From: an uncultured Alphaproteobacteria bacterium
Lineage (GTDB): Bacteria; Pseudomonadota; Alphaproteobacteria; RF32; CAG-239
DNA: 63,105 nucleotides
Assembly (NCBI GenBank): GCA_944391465.1
Contig: CALXTS010000007.1
Span: forward strand, 1 to 63,105
Reading direction: 5' to 3'
The notes under the pieces are model-generated. The model did not search any database, had not been told where the DNA came from, and saw nothing but the letters and a program-made list of their open reading frames with translations. This document shows positions 19,106 through 27,367 of this stretch, piece by piece. Position 1 is the stretch's first letter; every line of letters starts with the position of its first letter. The translations under genes and the position numbers were made by a program.

Positions 19106-19819
19106 TTATTTTTTAATACTTTTTCTTGAAAAAAACAAACCTATTTCAAATAAAAGATATGTCGGAATAGTCAACATAAGTTGGCTTACAACATCAGGAG
19201 GCGTTAAAATTCCAGCAATAATTAATATACCCACAAAAACATACGGTCGCTTGTTTTTAACACTTTCATAAGAAACAATATCTGAGCGAATAAGAGAATA
19301 TGTAATTAACGGAAATTGAAACATAACCCCAAAAATAAGCGAAAGCATTAAAGCCAAGCTGATGATATTAGAAACCCCTAATACCGCCTTAATCTCATCT
19401 GTTGAAAAACTGATACCGAAATTAATAATCATCGGTAAAATAAAGAAAATACAAAACAAAACGCCGAGCACAAATAAAAATGACGATGACAAAACAATCG
19501 AGCGAATAAAACGTCTCTCGTTTTCATATAATGCAGGCAATAAAAATTTCCATATTTGGTAAGCCATATATGGAAAACAAAGCAAAAAATCCAAAACAAC
19601 GGCAATTTTTATTTGCAGAATAAAAACTTCCATCGGAGAAAAATAATTAAGAGACACATCATTATTTCCGATACAAATTTTAATCAGCCACTCCATTACC
19701 GGAGGAACACAAAAAAACATCGGAACCACACATATGCTCAATGCAATTACACACTTCAAAAGCATTGAGCGCAGTGCTTCCAAATGAACGATAATACTCT
19801 CGTCTTGATTTTCAGACAT
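19106..19819 (-). CDS. tatC: Twin-arginine translocase subunit TatC
   Basis: TatC is the receptor for twin-arginine signal peptides in the inner membrane. The 237-residue protein has six hydrophobic segments, the N-terminal cytoplasmic HLEALRSMLLKC motif and the FSPMEVFILQIKIAVVLDF region. It also has FQFPLITYSLI and a final FEIGLFFSRK. It is the last gene of a ten-gene operon that includes two proteins with Tat signals and one with an internal twin-arginine motif. It starts 2 bases after tatA. No tatB is seen, so this looks like a minimal TatAC system unless tatB is elsewhere. Confidence 0.95.
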   Translation of the reverse strand: MSENQDESIIVHLEALRSMLLKCVIALSICVVPMFFCVPPVMEWLIKICIGNNDVSLNYFSPMEVFILQIKIAVVLDFLLCFPYMAYQIWKFLLPALYENERRFIRSIVLSSSFLFVLGVLFCIFFILPMIINFGISFSTDEIKAVLGVSNIISLALMLSLIFGVMFQFPLITYSLIRSDIVSYESVKNKRPYVFVGILIIAGILTPPDVVSQLMLTIPTYLLFEIGLFFSRKSIKK

Positions 19820-19821
19820 AT

Positions 19822-20031
19822 TTATTTCTCAGATTTTTTTTCTTCTTCCTCAACGGCTTTTTGAACGGTATCTTTTAAATCTTGAGCTTCATTTTGTAAC
19901 ATTTCTTTAGCTTTTTTATATTCATATTGAGCTTTACCGAAAGCCTTAGCCAATTCAGGGATTCTCTTTCCGCCAAAAAGAATTAAAACCACAACCAAAA
20001 TCAGAGCAATTTCCGTTAAACCTAATGACAT
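19822..20031 (-). CDS. tatA: Twin-arginine translocase subunit TatA
   Basis: The 69-residue protein has the TatA layout: a short membrane segment (about residues 4-19), the hinge [16 protein letters not shown] (19-34) and a charged amphipathic helix with an acidic/basic tail. TatA forms the translocation pore with TatC. TatB is similar but usually longer, so TatA is preferred. It sits between the polyferredoxin gene (11-base gap) and tatC (2-base gap). Confidence 0.92.
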
Positions 20032-20042
20032 TTTCTTCTCCT

Positions 20043-21314
20043 TTACAACACTTTTTGTTTTTCAACCGGAACAACCGCAATGGCATCAACAGGACAAGTA
20101 TTCTGACAAGCACCGCAACCGATGCACTCATCGGCACTGATTTGCGGATATCCGCCATCTTCACGCTTAATAATCTGTCGAGGACATTTCATCACGCATA
20201 AACCGCATTTTATACATTTACTTTCATCAACTAAAGCAACCCCTATTTGAGTTTTACGCTTTTCAGCCAATGAGATTCGCTCAATAGCTCCTGAAGGACA
20301 AACCTCAGAACATCTATGGCAATCATAATCGCAAAAACCGTCTGTATAGTCAATATGAACGACCGGATAATCCCCGTCAGCTTTTTTAATAATTTTCATC
20401 GGACAATTTTGCACGCAAAGATTACAGTTCAAACAACGATTCGCAAAATCATCAAGATTTTTTGCTCCGGCAGGAATAATAACTTTTTTGAACTTTTCAA
20501 CCGCACTTTTTGCAAGCAAAACACTTCCTTTTGCCGCCAATAACAAAACGCCGACAGCAGCCCCGCCGATAAGGAACTTCCTCCGAGATTGAGAAAACGG
20601 AACATTTTTATTTTTATGCATACCGAAAGAAATAGCACTTTTAGGACATTTTCTCAAACAATTCAAACATTTCACACAGGTTTCATTATCAACAGTTTTT
20701 TGTTTATAATCAATGCTTCCGGTTGGACATTTTGAAGCACAGGCACCGCAAGAAACACATTTATCGGCATCAATATAGATTTTATTTACGGCAAATTTAG
20801 AAATAAGCCCCAAAAGCGTTCCTACAGGACAAAGATTTGAACAAAACCAACGTCCCTTAAACCAAACTAAAACGGCAATCAAAAATAAAACCACAAGCCC
20901 AAACAATGCGCCTGACATTGCAGAACCAAATAGTGTATAAGGATCAATCAGCCGAACCAAAAAAGCTGTTCCGCCAATCAAAAAGCCCAAAACAAGCGCC
21001 GCAATAAAATATTTATAAGGCAAATTTTTCTTCAAAGAATTTTTACGACGAAAAACAAACATCAAAAACTCTTGTAAAATTCCCAAAGGACAAAGAGTAG
21101 AGCAGTAGAAACGCCCAAACAAAAAAGTTAATAAAAACAAACCCAATAAGAAAATAACGATACCTAAAGAAAAATCTATAAGAACACGCTGTAATAATGC
21201 AACCAATTGAATATCAAATACCTTAATCTGATAAAAAATACCCAAAAAAGCTAAAATACTTAATACGGCAACAATTGAAGCCAAACCTATTCTCAAGATA
21301 TAAGATTTATTCAT
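20043..21314 (-). CDS. NapH/NapG-like membrane polyferredoxin with an internal twin-arginine motif
   Basis: This 423-residue protein should carry electrons across the inner membrane. Residues 1-165 have about four membrane segments with two CxxxCP motifs (Cys71/75, Cys158/162), as in NapH/MauN. Two [4Fe-4S] motifs follow (Cys186/189/192/196 and Cys213/216/219/223). Then comes a twin-arginine motif, SRRKFLIGG with Arg244-Arg245, followed by a hydrophobic segment (about 248-270). The C-terminal third carries four more cysteine clusters (from Cys294, Cys328, Cys367 and Cys397). The layout reads like NapH fused to NapG, with the NapG Tat signal now internal. I infer that the C-terminal ferredoxin domain is exported by Tat. 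Partner enzymes may be the Tat-exported flavoprotein and reductase in the same operon. Confidence 0.85.
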
Positions 21315-21328
21315 TTTTTCCTCGTCAA

Positions 21329-22069
21329 TTATCTAACAAAATTTGTTTTTGCCCCTTTTTCAATCACTTCTTCAAAGTTCATATTTTTTGCTTCACCGAT
21401 TATTTTAAGAACATTAGCCATATTATGCGCTAAATTGCGCATTGTTTGCAAACCCTCTTTATCCTCTTTGGCATCTTGAGCGTTTGCACCAAAAACCATA
21501 TTCCAATAAGTCGAAGAAACAACCGGCATCTGATTAATAGTAAAATACTTATTTAACACATCAATTGTAGCCGTTGTTCCCGCACGTCTTGCTACCGCCA
21601 CGGAGGCTGCGGGTTTATGCTTTAAGAAACGACCGCCGGCATAAAAAACACGATCTAAAACCGAAAGAACACGACCGGATGGATGAGCATAATAAACAGG
21701 GCTCCCGACAATCAATGCGTCAGAAGTTTTCATTTTTTCAATAATTTCGTTGGCTATATCGTTAAATACACATTTATCATGTTCTCTACAATAACCGCAA
21801 GCAATACAATCCTGCTGAGCATCCGGTCCTAATTGAATAATTTCAGAATCAATATTATCTTTCTTTAATGTATTGGCTATTTCTTTCAAAGCAGTAAACG
21901 TCGTTCCGTCTTTATGGCAACTTCCGTTAATAAGCAACACTTTCATTTTCTTTTCTCCGACATTTGAATTTAAACTTTTTTCTGATGCTAAAACCATTTT
22001 TATATACTCTAAAAAAGGCAATCCCCCTATCATGACAATAGAATTAATAATAAAGTCACGGCGATTCAT
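21329..22069 (-). CDS. Tat-exported iron-sulfur flavoprotein (NADPH-dependent FMN reductase family)
   Basis: The 246-residue product begins with a twin-arginine signal (MNRRDFIINSIVMIGGLPF), so it should be folded and exported with its cofactors. After residue 40 follows a flavodoxin-like domain starting KVLLINGSCHKDGTTFTAL, typical of FMN-binding reductases. A cluster CIACGYCREHDKC (about residues 88-100) is like the [4Fe-4S] motif of iron-sulfur flavoproteins. SPVYYAHPSGRV is the second flavin-contact region. The substrate is unknown. It lies 14 bases upstream of the polyferredoxin gene, a likely electron donor, and 12 bases after the nickel permease-like gene. Confidence 0.85.
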   Translation of the reverse strand: MNRRDFIINSIVMIGGLPFLEYIKMVLASEKSLNSNVGEKKMKVLLINGSCHKDGTTFTALKEIANTLKKDNIDSEIIQLGPDAQQDCIACGYCREHDKCVFNDIANEIIEKMKTSDALIVGSPVYYAHPSGRVLSVLDRVFYAGGRFLKHKPAASVAVARRAGTTATIDVLNKYFTINQMPVVSSTYWNMVFGANAQDAKEDKEGLQTMRNLAHNMANVLKIIGEAKNMNFEEVIEKGAKTNFVR

Positions 22070-22081
22070 CTATACATATTC

Positions 22082-22825
22082 CTACAATCCCAAAACAATA
22101 GCCACGCCGCAAAGCATAATCGTTCCTCCGGCAATTTCATGAACATAATTTTCCAAACGTTTAAATGGTAAAGCATTTAACCCAACAAGCCCTAAAGCAA
22201 CCGCAAACATCATCGTTAAAATAGTAGCTAAAGAAAAAATAATCGTGCTTGAAACCACCGCATAAGCTCCCAAAACACTGGAGGCTGTGAGTATCGGCAA
22301 TAAAGCCTCACATGGTCCTAAAACAAAAATAATAAAAACAATCCAAACCGTCAAATTTTTATCTTTTTTCTCAACTGAAATATGCGAATGAACGACCTGA
22401 TGACGATGCAACCAACGCCGCCTTAAAGCATTAAGCAAATAAGCTGCACCTAAACCAATAAGAGCATAAGCGGCAAGATTTCCCCGATTACTTTCCAGCC
22501 AAACAAAATTTTCTTCACTTAGCCAATGAGAAAAATAAATAAACAGCAACGCAATCAATAAAGCGCTGGCAATATGCCCGACACCACAGATAAAAGTCCA
22601 AAGCAAAGTTTTTTTCAAACCATAGCCGCGGCTTTTTGCTATTGCCACAAAAGGCAAATAATGATCCGGCCCAATAATTGTATGCAAAATCGCCGTCAAA
22701 AGAGAGGCAACCCAAATGGCCGTTAACGGAGCATTATCAGCAAGCTCAACCTGTCCATGATTCCCATGAGCCAATGCATTTCCGGACAATAATGTCAAAA
22801 TTAAAAATAAAACAACTTTTTTCAT
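22082..22825 (-). CDS. NicO/UreH-type nickel (cobalt) permease
   Basis: The 247-residue membrane protein begins with a hydrophobic signal (MKKVVLFLILTLLSGNALAHG) followed by a histidine-bearing stretch (HGNHG, residues 20-24). It has about six further membrane segments. The sequence HTIIGPDHYLPF (about residues 48-59) resembles the H-x4/5-DH metal-binding motif of nickel/cobalt permeases, and a loop HRHQVVHSHISVEKK is histidine-rich. Nickel is the likely substrate because the gene lies 14 bases downstream of larE in an operon for the nickel-pincer cofactor. Cobalt or sulfite/organic anion export (TauE-like) are less likely alternatives. Confidence 0.78.
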   Translation of the reverse strand: MKKVVLFLILTLLSGNALAHGNHGQVELADNAPLTAIWVASLLTAILHTIIGPDHYLPFVAIAKSRGYGLKKTLLWTFICGVGHIASALLIALLFIYFSHWLSEENFVWLESNRGNLAAYALIGLGAAYLLNALRRRWLHRHQVVHSHISVEKKDKNLTVWIVFIIFVLGPCEALLPILTASSVLGAYAVVSSTIIFSLATILTMMFAVALGLVGLNALPFKRLENYVHEIAGGTIMLCGVAIVLGL

Positions 22826-22839
22826 AATCTCTCCTATGA

Positions 22840-23649
22840 CTAGCGATCATTCTCAATATCAAAACTTCCGGAACGAAAACCTTCCATATCCAGAGTTACA
22901 TAATTAAATCCAAGATTTTTTAAGCTATTTACTAATTCTTGACGAAGAGCCATAGCTTCAGAAAATAAAGAAACAGGAATTTCCAACCGCGCTATATTTC
23001 CATGAACTCTTAATCTAAAATTACAAGATTGAGGCAATAATGCTCTTATGAGCTTTTCTCCTTCCGCCACACGTTTTAAAGATACTTCATCAAGAAAAGT
23101 ATTGTACTCAAATCTGGTAGCCAAACAAGGAACCGCAGGCTTAGATGCCGTACTCAAACCAAGTTCTGAAGACATTTTGCGAATATCCGCTTTAGATATT
23201 CCGAGTTCCGCTAAAGGGGAACGAACACCCAACTCAGATAAAGCCTTTCTCCCCGGACGATAAATCGTTAAATCATCTGCATTCGTTCCGTCTAAAACAT
23301 ACTTGAGCTCGTGTACTTTGGCATAATCAAAAAATTTTTCAAAAATTGCTTTTTTGCAGTAATAGCACCTATCAAGATGATTATATCTAACAGCCTCCAA
23401 GTCAAAAGGATTAAAGGTTAAAATTTCATGATTAACATCCAAGAGTTGTGCTATTTTTTTTGCTTCTGATATTTCCGTCTTATCTTGTAACGCAGTTTGC
23501 ATTGTCAAGGCGACCAAAGGAAAAGGATTCTTTTTATTTAATTCACTCAACAGCGCCAAAAGCAAACAACTGTCAACACCGCCGGAAAAAGCCAAAGCAA
23601 CCCCGCCAACCGACAAATTTTGCAAATAATTTTTCAGTCGGTTAAGCAT
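22840..23649 (-). CDS. larE: ATP-dependent sacrificial sulfur transferase LarE
   Basis: LarE adenylates the pyridinium biscarboxylate mononucleotide made by LarB and inserts sulfur, in known members by giving up a cysteine sulfur. The 269-residue protein has the PP-loop SGGVDS (residues 22-27), the block RCYYCKKAIFEKF (94-106) and the motif KPAVPCLATRF. Cys175 aligns with the sacrificial cysteine of Lactobacillus LarE. It overlaps larC by 8 bases, so translation is coupled. Confidence 0.93.
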   Translation of the reverse strand: MLNRLKNYLQNLSVGGVALAFSGGVDSCLLLALLSELNKKNPFPLVALTMQTALQDKTEISEAKKIAQLLDVNHEILTFNPFDLEAVRYNHLDRCYYCKKAIFEKFFDYAKVHELKYVLDGTNADDLTIYRPGRKALSELGVRSPLAELGISKADIRKMSSELGLSTASKPAVPCLATRFEYNTFLDEVSLKRVAEGEKLIRALLPQSCNFRLRVHGNIARLEIPVSLFSEAMALRQELVNSLKNLGFNYVTLDMEGFRSGSFDIENDR

Positions 23650-24862
23650 TATCAGCCTTTTCAGCCATCATTCGGGCTTCATCAAAAACTTTACGAAAAG
23701 AAAGATTTGAGAGTTCCGCAATCTTCTTAACACTTTCATACTCAGGATTATATTTTACAATATTTCCGAGCCAACACTTTTTAACTTCGACCACGCCGTA
23801 AGGTAAGGTTACGTTTAAAATTTTTCTCTCCATACAACGACGCTCAACGGGATATTTGCGTAAACCGATTGTCGATGTATAAGAAAATATGATTTCTTCC
23901 ATTTTTGATAAAGATTTAGCTGAAGTAACCACTCTCAATAAAAAAGCCGGACGATTCTTTTTCATAAAACACGGCTCAAAATGAACATCTCTTGCTCCGG
24001 CAGACATAAGCTTTTCCATTGTCAATCCTAGCTCTTCTGATGTTGAATCGTCAATATTGGTTTCTATGATATAAACTTGATCATCGTCAACAACATCATC
24101 AATAATCATGGCTCGCAAGAAATTTGCCCGCCCGAAATCGCGTTTTCCCAAACCAATCCCCGTTTTGATAATTTTATAAGCAGACGGAAGTTTATCTATC
24201 GTTTTAAGAGCCGCAACAGCTGCAATTCCGGTCGGCGTTACCATTTCGCCGTTTGTTTCGGACGGATGCAAAATAATTCCGTATTTTTGTGCAATATTAA
24301 CAACCGCCGGAACCGGAACAGGCAACCGTCCATGCTGACATTCCACAAAACCTTTACCTTCACATAATCCGTTTACAATTACCTGATTTACGGCTAAATC
24401 ATCAATCAAAACCGCAATTGCAATAATATCAACTATTGAATCTATTGCACCGACTTCATGAAAATGCACTTCATCAAGCGAACATCCATGCGCTTTAGCC
24501 TCAGCTTCAGCAACAATCAGAAAGATTTTTTTTGCCAAATCTCGAGCGGTAGAAGTCATTTCCCCTTTATCAATAATATCATAAACATCGGATAAATGGC
24601 GATGTTCATGATGATGTTCGTGATGATGCTCATGATATTCTTCTTCGTGAACATGTTCTTTTTGATGAAGCAAAACATTAAAATCGCAACCGGAAATACT
24701 GTAAGAATTTTTCTTGGCAATTTGATAATCAAAACCATCCAAGCGCAGACTTTTTAAAACCGAGTTTAATTTTGCCTCATTAGCCCCCAAATCAAGCAAT
24801 GCTGCTACCATCATATCGCCGCTGATACCGCAGGAACCGTCCAAAAACAAATATTCAGACAT
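23642..24862 (-). CDS. larC: Nickel-pincer cofactor biosynthesis protein LarC
   Basis: LarC is the CTP-dependent nickel insertase that completes the nickel-pincer nucleotide. The 406-residue protein begins LFLDGSCGISGDMMVAALLD, the DUF111 signature. It has a very histidine-rich segment at residues 66-89 that should hold nickel, then EVHFHEVGAIDSIVDI and the C-terminal catalytic part. In Lactobacillus larC is split by a programmed frameshift; here it is one uninterrupted frame. It overlaps larB by 8 bases at its start and larE by 8 bases at its end. Confidence 0.94.
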   Translation of the reverse strand: MSEYLFLDGSCGISGDMMVAALLDLGANEAKLNSVLKSLRLDGFDYQIAKKNSYSISGCDFNVLLHQKEHVHEEEYHEHHHEHHHEHRHLSDVYDIIDKGEMTSTARDLAKKIFLIVAEAEAKAHGCSLDEVHFHEVGAIDSIVDIIAIAVLIDDLAVNQVIVNGLCEGKGFVECQHGRLPVPVPAVVNIAQKYGIILHPSETNGEMVTPTGIAAVAALKTIDKLPSAYKIIKTGIGLGKRDFGRANFLRAMIIDDVVDDDQVYIIETNIDDSTSEELGLTMEKLMSAGARDVHFEPCFMKKNRPAFLLRVVTSAKSLSKMEEIIFSYTSTIGLRKYPVERRCMERKILNVTLPYGVVEVKKCWLGNIVKYNPEYESVKKIAELSNLSFRKVFDEARMMAEKADNA

Positions 24863-25535
24863 TTTTCTTCATTCTCCTCAAAATTCTGCAAGCCGTAACC
24901 GCAGCTCCAAAACCATTATCAATATTCACAACACTGATTCCTTCCGCGCAAGAATTCAGCATTGTCAACAAAGGTGCCAACCCGCTAAAAGAGGCTCCGT
25001 AACCGACAGAAGTCGGAACAGCAATAACCGGCGTTTCCACCAAACCGGCAATAACACCCGCCAAAGCCCCTTCCATACCGGCAACGGCAATAATAACATC
25101 AGCCTGTCGAATATCCTCTAACTTTGCCAACAAGCGATGAAGACCGGCAACGCCGACATCAAAACATCGAATAACCTCAGCTCCTAAAAACTCTGCGGTT
25201 TTTGCCGCTTCTTCTGCCACAGGCAAATCTGCGGTTCCTCCGGTACAAATAGCAATTTTTCCGCCCATAGTTTCTCCAGACGATGCCTTAAGGACAATAA
25301 TTTTTGAACAAGCATCGTAAACCACAGATAATCCGGAATTTTGAACAAACTCAGCTTTATCTTCAGAACATCTTGTTCCTAAAACAGAAATATTTTTATC
25401 CTTAAAAGCTCTCAATATCTCAAGAAGTTGTTCTTTGGTTTTTCCGGCGCAATAAATTGTTTCAGCGATTCCCGTTCTGTCTTTGCGGCTAATATCAAGT
25501 TTGGCAAAGCCCAAATCCGTAAAAACATCGGCCAT
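24855..25535 (-). CDS. larB: Nickel-pincer cofactor biosynthesis protein LarB
   Basis: LarB carboxylates and hydrolyses nicotinic acid adenine dinucleotide, the first step of the nickel-pincer nucleotide. The 226-residue protein resembles the AIR carboxylase (PurE) fold: AICTGGTADLPVAEEAA (about residues 114-130), then RCFDVGVAGLHRL, VAGMEGALAGVIAGL and VPTSVGYGASFSGL. The cluster larB-larC-larE is complete and in catalytic order. The flavodoxin gene upstream ends at the base before the larB start. Confidence 0.93.
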   Translation of the reverse strand: MADVFTDLGFAKLDISRKDRTGIAETIYCAGKTKEQLLEILRAFKDKNISVLGTRCSEDKAEFVQNSGLSVVYDACSKIIVLKASSGETMGGKIAICTGGTADLPVAEEAAKTAEFLGAEVIRCFDVGVAGLHRLLAKLEDIRQADVIIAVAGMEGALAGVIAGLVETPVIAVPTSVGYGASFSGLAPLLTMLNSCAEGISVVNIDNGFGAAVTACRILRRMKKNV

Positions 25536-26123
25536 CTATTTACCCAGCCCCAAATCATCTAGCCAGCCCGAAACACCCAAAGTACGGCTTCCGTAACCGA
25601 CCCAAGCGCCATCAACAACTTGGCAACCTTTGCATTGAATGGTCATATCTTTAACGGTATTCTGAACACCGCCGCCGCCATGAGTAATAAACGGAATAAC
25701 TTTTTTACCGGATAAATTATAACTTTCCAAAAAACTGCTGACTTGAGGTGTAATAGTTCCCCACCAATTCGGCGAGCCTAAAAATACAATATCATATTGA
25801 GAAATATCATCAACTTTCGTAAGCAATTTCGGACGATATCCGTCTTTAATCTCTTTTTGAGCTTGAACGGTCATTGGTCTGTATTCTTCAGGATAACTTC
25901 CTTCTGTCTTAATTTCAAACAGAGTCCCGCCGACTTTTTTATGAATAGCTTCCGCAACTTCTTTTGTGTTTCCGCTGTAAGAATAATAAGCGACCAAAAT
26001 TTTAGAGTTGTCAGAGACCTCAACCTTATCCTCTACTTTCTGCTGAGCAAACACTTTATATGCTCCCAAAAGAACCACCACTGTAAAAACACTGGCTAAA
26101 ATCAAAAATTTATTCATCTTCAA
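25536..26123 (-). CDS. Exported flavodoxin
   Basis: The 195-residue product has a Sec-type signal or membrane anchor (residues 1-26, hydrophobic core FLILASVFTVVVLLGAY) followed by a flavodoxin fold. The FMN phosphate loop is YYSYSGNTKEVAEAI (about residues 47-61), and the isoalloxazine-contact loops are LGSPNWWGTITP and THGGGGVQNT. Periplasmic flavodoxins of this type are found with aldo/keto reductases in gut bacteria. It is 5 bases after the aldo/keto reductase gene and directly abuts larB. Its redox partner is likely one of the exported enzymes of this operon. Confidence 0.85.
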   Translation of the reverse strand: MKMNKFLILASVFTVVVLLGAYKVFAQQKVEDKVEVSDNSKILVAYYSYSGNTKEVAEAIHKKVGGTLFEIKTEGSYPEEYRPMTVQAQKEIKDGYRPKLLTKVDDISQYDIVFLGSPNWWGTITPQVSSFLESYNLSGKKVIPFITHGGGGVQNTVKDMTIQCKGCQVVDGAWVGYGSRTLGVSGWLDDLGLGK

Positions 26124-26128
26124 CCTCT

Positions 26129-27367
26129 CTATGCTTCAAAAGTTTTGGCAACTTCTTTCATCCATTTACTGATTTCAATATGCTGAGGACAATTCTTTTC
26201 ACAAAGCCGACAACCGATACAAGACGATGCCTTTCCGTGAGTTTTGATTAAATTGTTATAATAAACAGCCTGAGCATTAAAGGGTTTATCCTGCCGCTCT
26301 TGTTTTTCTGCATTGTATAAAGCAAAGTAATCCGGAATGGCAATTTTCATCGGACAAGCCTCCACACAATACTGGCAAGCCGTACACGGAATGGTTATTT
26401 CATCATGCAATGTCTTAACCGCCGTTTCCACAACCTTTAATTCTTGAGCATCTAACGGCTTAAAATTCCGCATATAAGATGTATTATCTTCAATTTGTTC
26501 CATATTACTCATACCGCTTAGAACCATCATCACCCCATCAAGACTTGCTGCATAGCGAATAGCCCAAGAAGCAACCGACATATTAGGTTCGGCATTTTTA
26601 AATATTTTTTCGACAGCCGGAGGAACCATAGCCAAACTTCCACCTTTAACCGGTTCCATAACAATAACCGGCTTATTATATTTTTGAGCAACTTCATAAC
26701 ATTTTCTGGATTGAATACTTGCGTTGTCCCAATCAATGTAGTTAATTTGCAACTGAACAAATTCAACTTCCGGATGCTCTTTTAATACTTCCTCTAAAAG
26801 CTCCGGCGTATCATGGAAGGAAAAACCGATATGTTTAACTTTGCCTTCCTTTTTCTTATCCGCCACAAATTTAAAACTATCATATTTTCTGGCATTTCCG
26901 ATTGTATTGGCATTAACATTATGAACCAAGTAATAATCAAAATAATCAAGCCCTGTTTTTTCAAGTTGCTTATTAAAAATTTCTTCTTGATGTTCAGCAC
27001 TTTTGAGCATACCGATAGGTAACTTGCTGGCAACGGTAAATTTATTTCTGGGATGGCGCTCGACTAAAGATTTACGCAAAGCAACTTCACTTTCATATCC
27101 CATATACATCCACGCCGTGTCAAAATAAGTAAAACCGCGTTCTAAAAATGTATCCACCATTTTATTTAGAGTATCATAGTCAATAGACGTCTGATCCTGA
27201 GGATTTTTTAACGGCAGACGCATAAAACCGAAACCAAGTTTATTATTGGCATTTATCTTACTTTTAACCGCATCAGATACAGGTATGGATTCTGCAAAAG
27301 TTAATTTTGGAAGAGCCGACAAAGCAAAAGCAGCCAATGTTGTCATTAAAAATTCGCGCCTATTCAT
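26129..27367 (-). CDS. Tat-exported aldo/keto reductase with two C-terminal [4Fe-4S] clusters
   Basis: The 412-residue protein starts with a twin-arginine signal ([20 protein letters not shown], cleavage likely after TFA). The AKR barrel has the full catalytic tetrad: Asp83 and Tyr88 ([11 protein letters not shown]), Lys115 (VASKL) and His149 (YLVHN). The C-terminal part has two ferredoxin motifs, [12 protein letters not shown] and [12 protein letters not shown] (about residues 335-400). Such AKR-ferredoxin proteins probably take electrons from an iron-sulfur or flavin donor rather than NADPH alone. It is the first gene of the operon and follows a MerR-type promoter. The reaction is unknown. 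Confidence 0.88.

Follow-up and report, generated by a model that had tools for sequence, protein, structure and literature searches.

Gene content of the polyferredoxin operon

The window analysed here, a stretch of 63,105 nucleotides from an uncultured alphaproteobacterium, contains an operon of ten same-strand genes that runs along the minus strand from 27367 to 19106 with gaps of no more than 15 bp. In order, these genes encode an aldo/keto reductase, a flavodoxin, LarB, LarC, LarE, a probable nickel permease, an FMN-reductase-like protein, a polyferredoxin (PFD), TatA and TatC. No nitrate reductase gene was found among the operon genes examined. All window features described below lie on the minus strand.

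The aldo/keto reductase (26129-27367; PF00248 and Fer4) has two [4Fe-4S] clusters and a Tat-type signal, MNRREFL, in which the twin arginine is conserved. The flavodoxin (25536-26123; PF12682) has an N-terminal hydrophobic, Sec-like segment lacking a twin arginine; the protein is conserved in the module and is apparently exported. Three genes for the nickel-pincer cofactor follow: larB for its synthesis (24855-25535; NF033503), larC for nickel insertion (23642-24862; PF01969, TIGR00299) and larE for sulfur transfer (22840-23649; TIGR00268). The next gene product (22082-22825) is a multi-spanning membrane protein with a GPDH motif that has no Pfam or NCBIfam match and was named a probable nickel permease from this motif and its context. 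An FMN-reductase/flavodoxin-like protein (21329-22069; PF03358) carries the N-terminal Tat-type motif MNRRDFI and precedes the PFD gene (20043-21314). As the earlier note had stated, tatA and tatC come directly after the latter: tatA (19822-20031; TatA/E family, 69 residues, PF02416) begins 11 bp beyond the PFD stop codon, and tatC (19106-19819; 237 residues, PF00902 and TIGR00945) lies 2 bp further on.

Sequence anatomy of the polyferredoxin

The open reading frame and profile matches describe a protein of 423 residues in which a NapH-like membrane half is joined to a NapG-like four-cluster half by a twin arginine and a fifth putative transmembrane segment (TM5). We scored hydrophobic 19-residue segments with a simple additive biological scale rather than with the published server. 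By this measure four segments are strong (residues 9-27, 48-66, 102-120 and 134-152; summed values -1.2 to -4.1) and the fifth, at 248-266 (20517-20573), is weak (+2.7) and is followed by net positive charge. This fifth segment is the predicted Tat-dependent TM5. The twin arginine, Arg244-Arg245 (codons CGG AGG at 20585-20580), stands just ahead of it within SRRKFL (residues 243-248), part of the longer SRRKFLIGG (243-251).

The 28 cysteines can be assigned to seven [4Fe-4S] sites, three ahead of the twin arginine and four behind it. Those ahead comprise two CxxxCP pairs and two Cx2Cx2Cx3C motifs. The first pair, Cys71 and Cys75 (21090-21104), is of the NapH type, matches Fer4_5 (PF12801) and is kept in 83/83 aligned sequences; the second, Cys158 and Cys162 (20829-20843), is supported by sequence and conservation. 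The Cx2Cx2Cx3C motifs form a two-cluster ferredoxin segment (Cys186-Cys223, 20646-20759), predicted to face the cytoplasm, and the four sites behind the twin arginine make up the C-terminal domain (residues 281-423, 20046-20474); both regions are recognized by sequence, profile and conservation. The membrane segments, the mid-protein SRRKFLIGG, the hydrophobic stretch and the four later clusters were thus correctly read in the earlier note, which had also counted two ferredoxin clusters in the first half. The CxxxCP pairs add a third site to that count.

Neither half reaches the curated level of its namesake. The first half scores 85.9 bits against TIGR02163 (NapH/MauN; cut-off 213.05) and also matches NF007013 (NapH) under the curated cut-off, and the second scores 57.8 bits against NF007012 (NapG; cut-off 269). 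The halves are NapH-like and NapG-like, and are not NapH and NapG. The likeness to NapH consists of the two CxxxCP sites and the two-cluster segment, that to NapG of the twin-arginine signal and four clusters; unlike NapG and NapH of the periplasmic nitrate reductase, the window PFD is one polypeptide and not two.

The distribution of positive charge fits a topology with the N-terminus inside, four Sec-inserted helices, and loops 2 and 4 and the twin-arginine loop in the cytoplasm. An AF2 model (pLDDT 79, pTM 0.52) contains the helices and ferredoxin folds, with a continuous helix from 242 to 276; at this pTM, the model does not fix on which side of the membrane the two ferredoxin halves lie. 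Searches of folds and solved structures gave no more than general matches to polyferredoxins and 2[4Fe-4S] proteins, and no NapGH-type structure was among them.

Conservation of the twin arginine and TM5

A scan of public genomes yielded 80 PFD loci and a search of the genus yielded 13 full-length copies, including that of the window; after removal of identical rows, 83 distinct sequences were aligned. The earlier note had proposed conservation of the arginines in close relatives as a check on its reading. The pair is invariant in the distinct relatives that keep the segment (81/81, counting as positive locus L116, where it is displaced by one alignment column). Positions 243 and 246, on either side of it, are freely variable, and the conservation of the pair is therefore not due to chance. 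At least 81 of the 83 sequences share each of the 28 cysteines. TM5 scored above zero in 80/80 relatives, as compared with a median of -1.9 for TM1 (again on the simple additive scale), and the net charge behind TM5 has a median of +3 and a range of 0 to +5.

Only two of the 83 sequences lack the twin arginine. One, L053, is a deletion remnant described below. In the other, L108 (8977-10131), comparison with L088 reveals an in-frame loss of 126 bp that takes out exactly the twin arginine and TM5 and leaves all cluster motifs intact; its genome retains TatC, and the loss is possibly an assembly error.

Co-occurrence of the polyferredoxin and the Tat system

The window genome (1.58 Mb in 43 contigs) encodes a single TatC, which scores above both cut-offs (178.9 bits against 132.7 for TIGR00945; 197.3 against 25.1 for PF00902). 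The tatA product is the only TatA/B/E match and no TatB was found in the genome. Because there is one TatC and one TatA/B/E match, the Tat machinery of this genome is a minimal TatAC system.

Across 34 genomes of the genus, 13 have both full-length PFD and TatC, and the other 21 have neither (Fisher 1e-9, a value that ignores shared ancestry). In the genus, the Tat exporter is found in exactly the PFD-bearing species, and the two come and go together. A second set of 77 genomes, centred on Gastranaerophilales, includes 17 with PFD, every one of which (17/17) has TatC. The 60 PFD-less genomes of this set divide into 47 without TatC and 13 with TatC alone, 9 of the 13 being consecutive entries (G161-G169) at the end of the Gastranaerophilales-centred list. 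At the locus level, tatC lies directly downstream of PFD in 73/80 cases and two more loci end at contig ends after tatA; the remaining five lack adjacent tat genes and have TatC elsewhere in the genome (5/5). An order-level relative, G034, has a Tat system and no PFD. A weak second TatC match in G026 was set aside, as it sits among flagellar-type membrane proteins.

In G009 (L053, 6865-8999) the PFD is reduced to approximately its first 165 residues. Comparison with the syntenic region of G026 indicates that a single deletion of ~5.5 kb removed the NapG half, tatA, tatC and the genes for the aldo/keto reductase, flavodoxin, LarB and LarC; no TatC was found in the G009 genome. G031 (82% complete), which is without TatC and PFD, has only a broken aldo/keto reductase (L145, contig C61), truncated and carrying a Tat-type signal. 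The Tat-less G011 has a leftover Tat-type signal on an FMN-reductase-like protein (L139, contig C15), possibly contamination.

In this lineage, PFD and tatAC act as a single unit: they are gained and lost together, and were probably also transferred together. A strict link of this kind between PFD and a sole Tat system, in two unrelated groups, was not found described in the open-access literature searched. The PFD is not the only Tat client, as other Tat-type signals occur on flavin proteins and aldo/keto reductases of these genomes, and TatC thus need not serve the PFD alone. Even G012, which lacks the aldo/keto reductase, has one flavodoxin-like protein with a Tat-type signal. The Tat signal profile PF10518 was too weak for reliable client counts.

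Origin of the TatAC genes

TatABC is the norm in the class Alphaproteobacteria (PMC3305326), and most same-class genomes tested had two TatA/B/E matches. The window Tat system is not of this type: it has one TatA/B/E match, and its TatC forms a separate clade with the PFD-linked TatC proteins of gut Alphaproteobacteria and Gastranaerophilales. A long branch sets this clade apart from the alphaproteobacterial TatC proteins, among them the one in the order-level relative G034. As the window TatC groups with the Gastranaerophilales type and not with alphaproteobacterial TatC, horizontal transfer is likely. Furthermore, PFD and TatC distances correlate (r 0.79), and the genus carries the PFD-tat cassette in about seven genomic contexts. 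Taken together, co-occurrence, adjacency, the TatC tree, the correlated distances and the varied genomic contexts suggest a history in which the ancestral Tat system was lost, and a PFD-tatAC cassette was taken up and travelled as one piece.

Proposed insertion by Sec and Tat

An experimental precedent exists for this type of protein. Q1NSB0 from delta proteobacterium MLMS-1 is a NapH-NapG fusion polyferredoxin that is dual Sec/Tat targeted (Tooke et al. 2017, PMC5449189). It has five transmembrane domains, a twin arginine before the fifth, and seven clusters, of which three are inside and four outside (PMC5449189). Fusions of Q1NSB0 to MBP and AmiA showed Tat-dependent export in E. coli that was abolished by replacement of the two arginines with lysines, and in the absence of Tat the protein was still found in the membrane (PMC5449189). 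Its family combines a positive predicted insertion energy for TM5 with positive charge behind this segment (PMC5449189).

Compared by these described features, the window PFD likewise has five predicted transmembrane domains, a twin arginine just before the fifth, a three-plus-four arrangement of clusters, a TM5 that is unfavourable for Sec and positive charge behind it. Judged from its sequence, it shares every tested feature of the Q1NSB0 type, a kind known since 2017. The proteins differ in the position of TM5 (~248-266 in the window PFD versus 338-359 in Q1NSB0), which indicates a shorter N-terminal half in the former. Unlike Q1NSB0 of MLMS-1, the window-type PFD occurs in gut Alphaproteobacteria and Gastranaerophilales and is bundled with its own tatA-tatC; linkage of the polyferredoxin to tat genes is not mentioned in PMC5449189, from whose text the word 'operon' is absent. 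The earlier note had cited only actinobacterial Rieske proteins of the Sco2149 type, missing the exact polyferredoxin precedent. The Rieske proteins also have a twin arginine ahead of the last helix and use Sec and then Tat, but they have a [2Fe-2S] domain and three transmembrane domains and no sequence relation to the window PFD.

We consider it very probable that the PFD, a polyferredoxin of the NapH-NapG type, enters the membrane by both Sec and Tat and forms with tatAC a cassette that behaves as one unit. Sec would insert TM1-4 with the N-terminus inside, so that the CxxxCP sites and the two-cluster ferredoxin segment stay on the cytoplasmic side. Given the positive charge that follows it, TM5 is predicted to lack the hydrophobicity needed for Sec to hold it, and for this reason the four-cluster C-terminal domain would fold in the cytoplasm. 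TatC would then read the twin arginine ahead of TM5, and the adjacent minimal TatA-TatC would move the folded domain to the outside. Dual targeting, proposed in the earlier note, is supported by the invariant twin arginine, the Q1NSB0 precedent (PMC5449189) and the presence of TatC in every genome examined that has a full-length PFD. Tat dependence was demonstrated for this relative of the same kind, and by analogy export of the window protein is predicted.

NapGH-type proteins carry electrons across the membrane, and by analogy the PFD should do the same. The product would be a wire of seven [4Fe-4S] clusters, with electrons most likely passing outward to the exported flavin proteins and aldo/keto reductase of the operon, which are the likely acceptors.

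Alternative explanations

An arrangement with all seven clusters in the cytoplasm would treat TM5 as a re-entrant or amphipathic helix and the twin arginine merely as a positive-inside signal of a cytoplasm-facing polyferredoxin. The weak hydrophobicity of TM5, the unfixed domain placement in the AF2 model and the intact cluster motifs of L108, which lacks the twin arginine and TM5, are compatible with it. A positive-inside signal would accept lysine, yet the arginines are invariant in 81/81 sequences between variable neighbours; with the co-occurrence of PFD and TatC and the experimental precedent (PMC5449189), this makes the arrangement very improbable. It is also conceivable that Sec alone handles TM5 and the C-terminal domain, tatAC serving instead the aldo/keto reductase and flavin proteins, given that two other operon proteins carry Tat-type signals. 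This is hardly credible: PFD-tatA-tatC persists in two genomes (G001 and G012) that lack the aldo/keto reductase, the twin arginine is invariant ahead of a TM5 unfavourable for Sec, and the related PFD, Q1NSB0, required Tat in E. coli (PMC5449189).

The co-occurrence itself might go back to a single clade within the genus in which Tat was retained or acquired once, with no functional linkage to the PFD. The counts over 34 species are uncorrected for phylogeny and the order-level relative G034 has Tat without PFD, both of which favour such an account. Against it stand three observations: the genus has a TatC of another type than the alphaproteobacterial one of G034, about seven different genomic contexts harbour the cassette, and the pattern is seen again around Gastranaerophilales. 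We regard this account as decidedly improbable.

Dual Sec/Tat polyferredoxins being already known, what appears to be new is the linkage of PFD to the only Tat system of a species. The window organism offers a stripped-down natural case, with a small genome, a single TatA, a single TatC and few apparent clients, in a genus whose exporter is restricted to species with the dual-targeted protein. This is a compact system for asking how a multi-spanning protein passes from Sec to Tat, and it also bears on why a species retains Tat at all.

An orphan nickel-pincer pathway in the operon

No match to the LarA family (PF09861) was found in the window genome and its relatives, or in 28 module-bearing genomes from both groups. 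Without a LarA-family partner, larBCE (22840-25535) is an orphan nickel-pincer pathway set in a Tat/redox operon. Approximately 15% of genomes contain larBEC without larA, and many cyanobacteria probably use the nickel-pincer cofactor in an unidentified protein (PMC11796402). The window resembles these cases in having larB, larC and larE and no LarA-family gene, and is unlike them in that its orphan pathway sits in a Tat/polyferredoxin/aldo-keto reductase operon.

In Gastranaerophilales the gene order is flavodoxin, aldo/keto reductase, PFD, tatA, tatC, larB, larC, a CbiM-like gene and larE. The CbiM-like nickel/cobalt uptake gene between larC and larE was observed in L117 (12732-13643) and other Gastranaerophilales loci, and the alphaproteobacterial modules have a different multi-spanning membrane protein in its place. 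That the type of nickel-uptake gene differs between the two groups argues that nickel uptake and the lar genes may belong functionally with the module.

A broader reading is that the module is a portable export-and-electron unit, in which larBCE would supply the cofactor to a client within the module. This client would acquire the cofactor in the cytoplasm, cross the membrane in folded form through TatAC and receive electrons from the PFD. The aldo/keto reductase with its Tat-type signal would be the first candidate client, as outside the cytoplasm this enzyme would be unable to draw on free NAD(P)H. If true, a non-LarA user of the cofactor would thereby be identified, the existence of which has been argued to be likely (PMC11796402); the conserved orphan neighbourhood provides a short list of candidate genes for the missing users. 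We regard this reading as unlikely because three genomes (G004, G029 and G030) have the aldo/keto reductase without LarC, which also weakens the enzyme as an obligatory nickel-pincer protein. The module's aldo/keto reductase is found in all eight larC genomes of the genus, and the copies of the three exceptional genomes are interspersed with those from larC-positive genomes.
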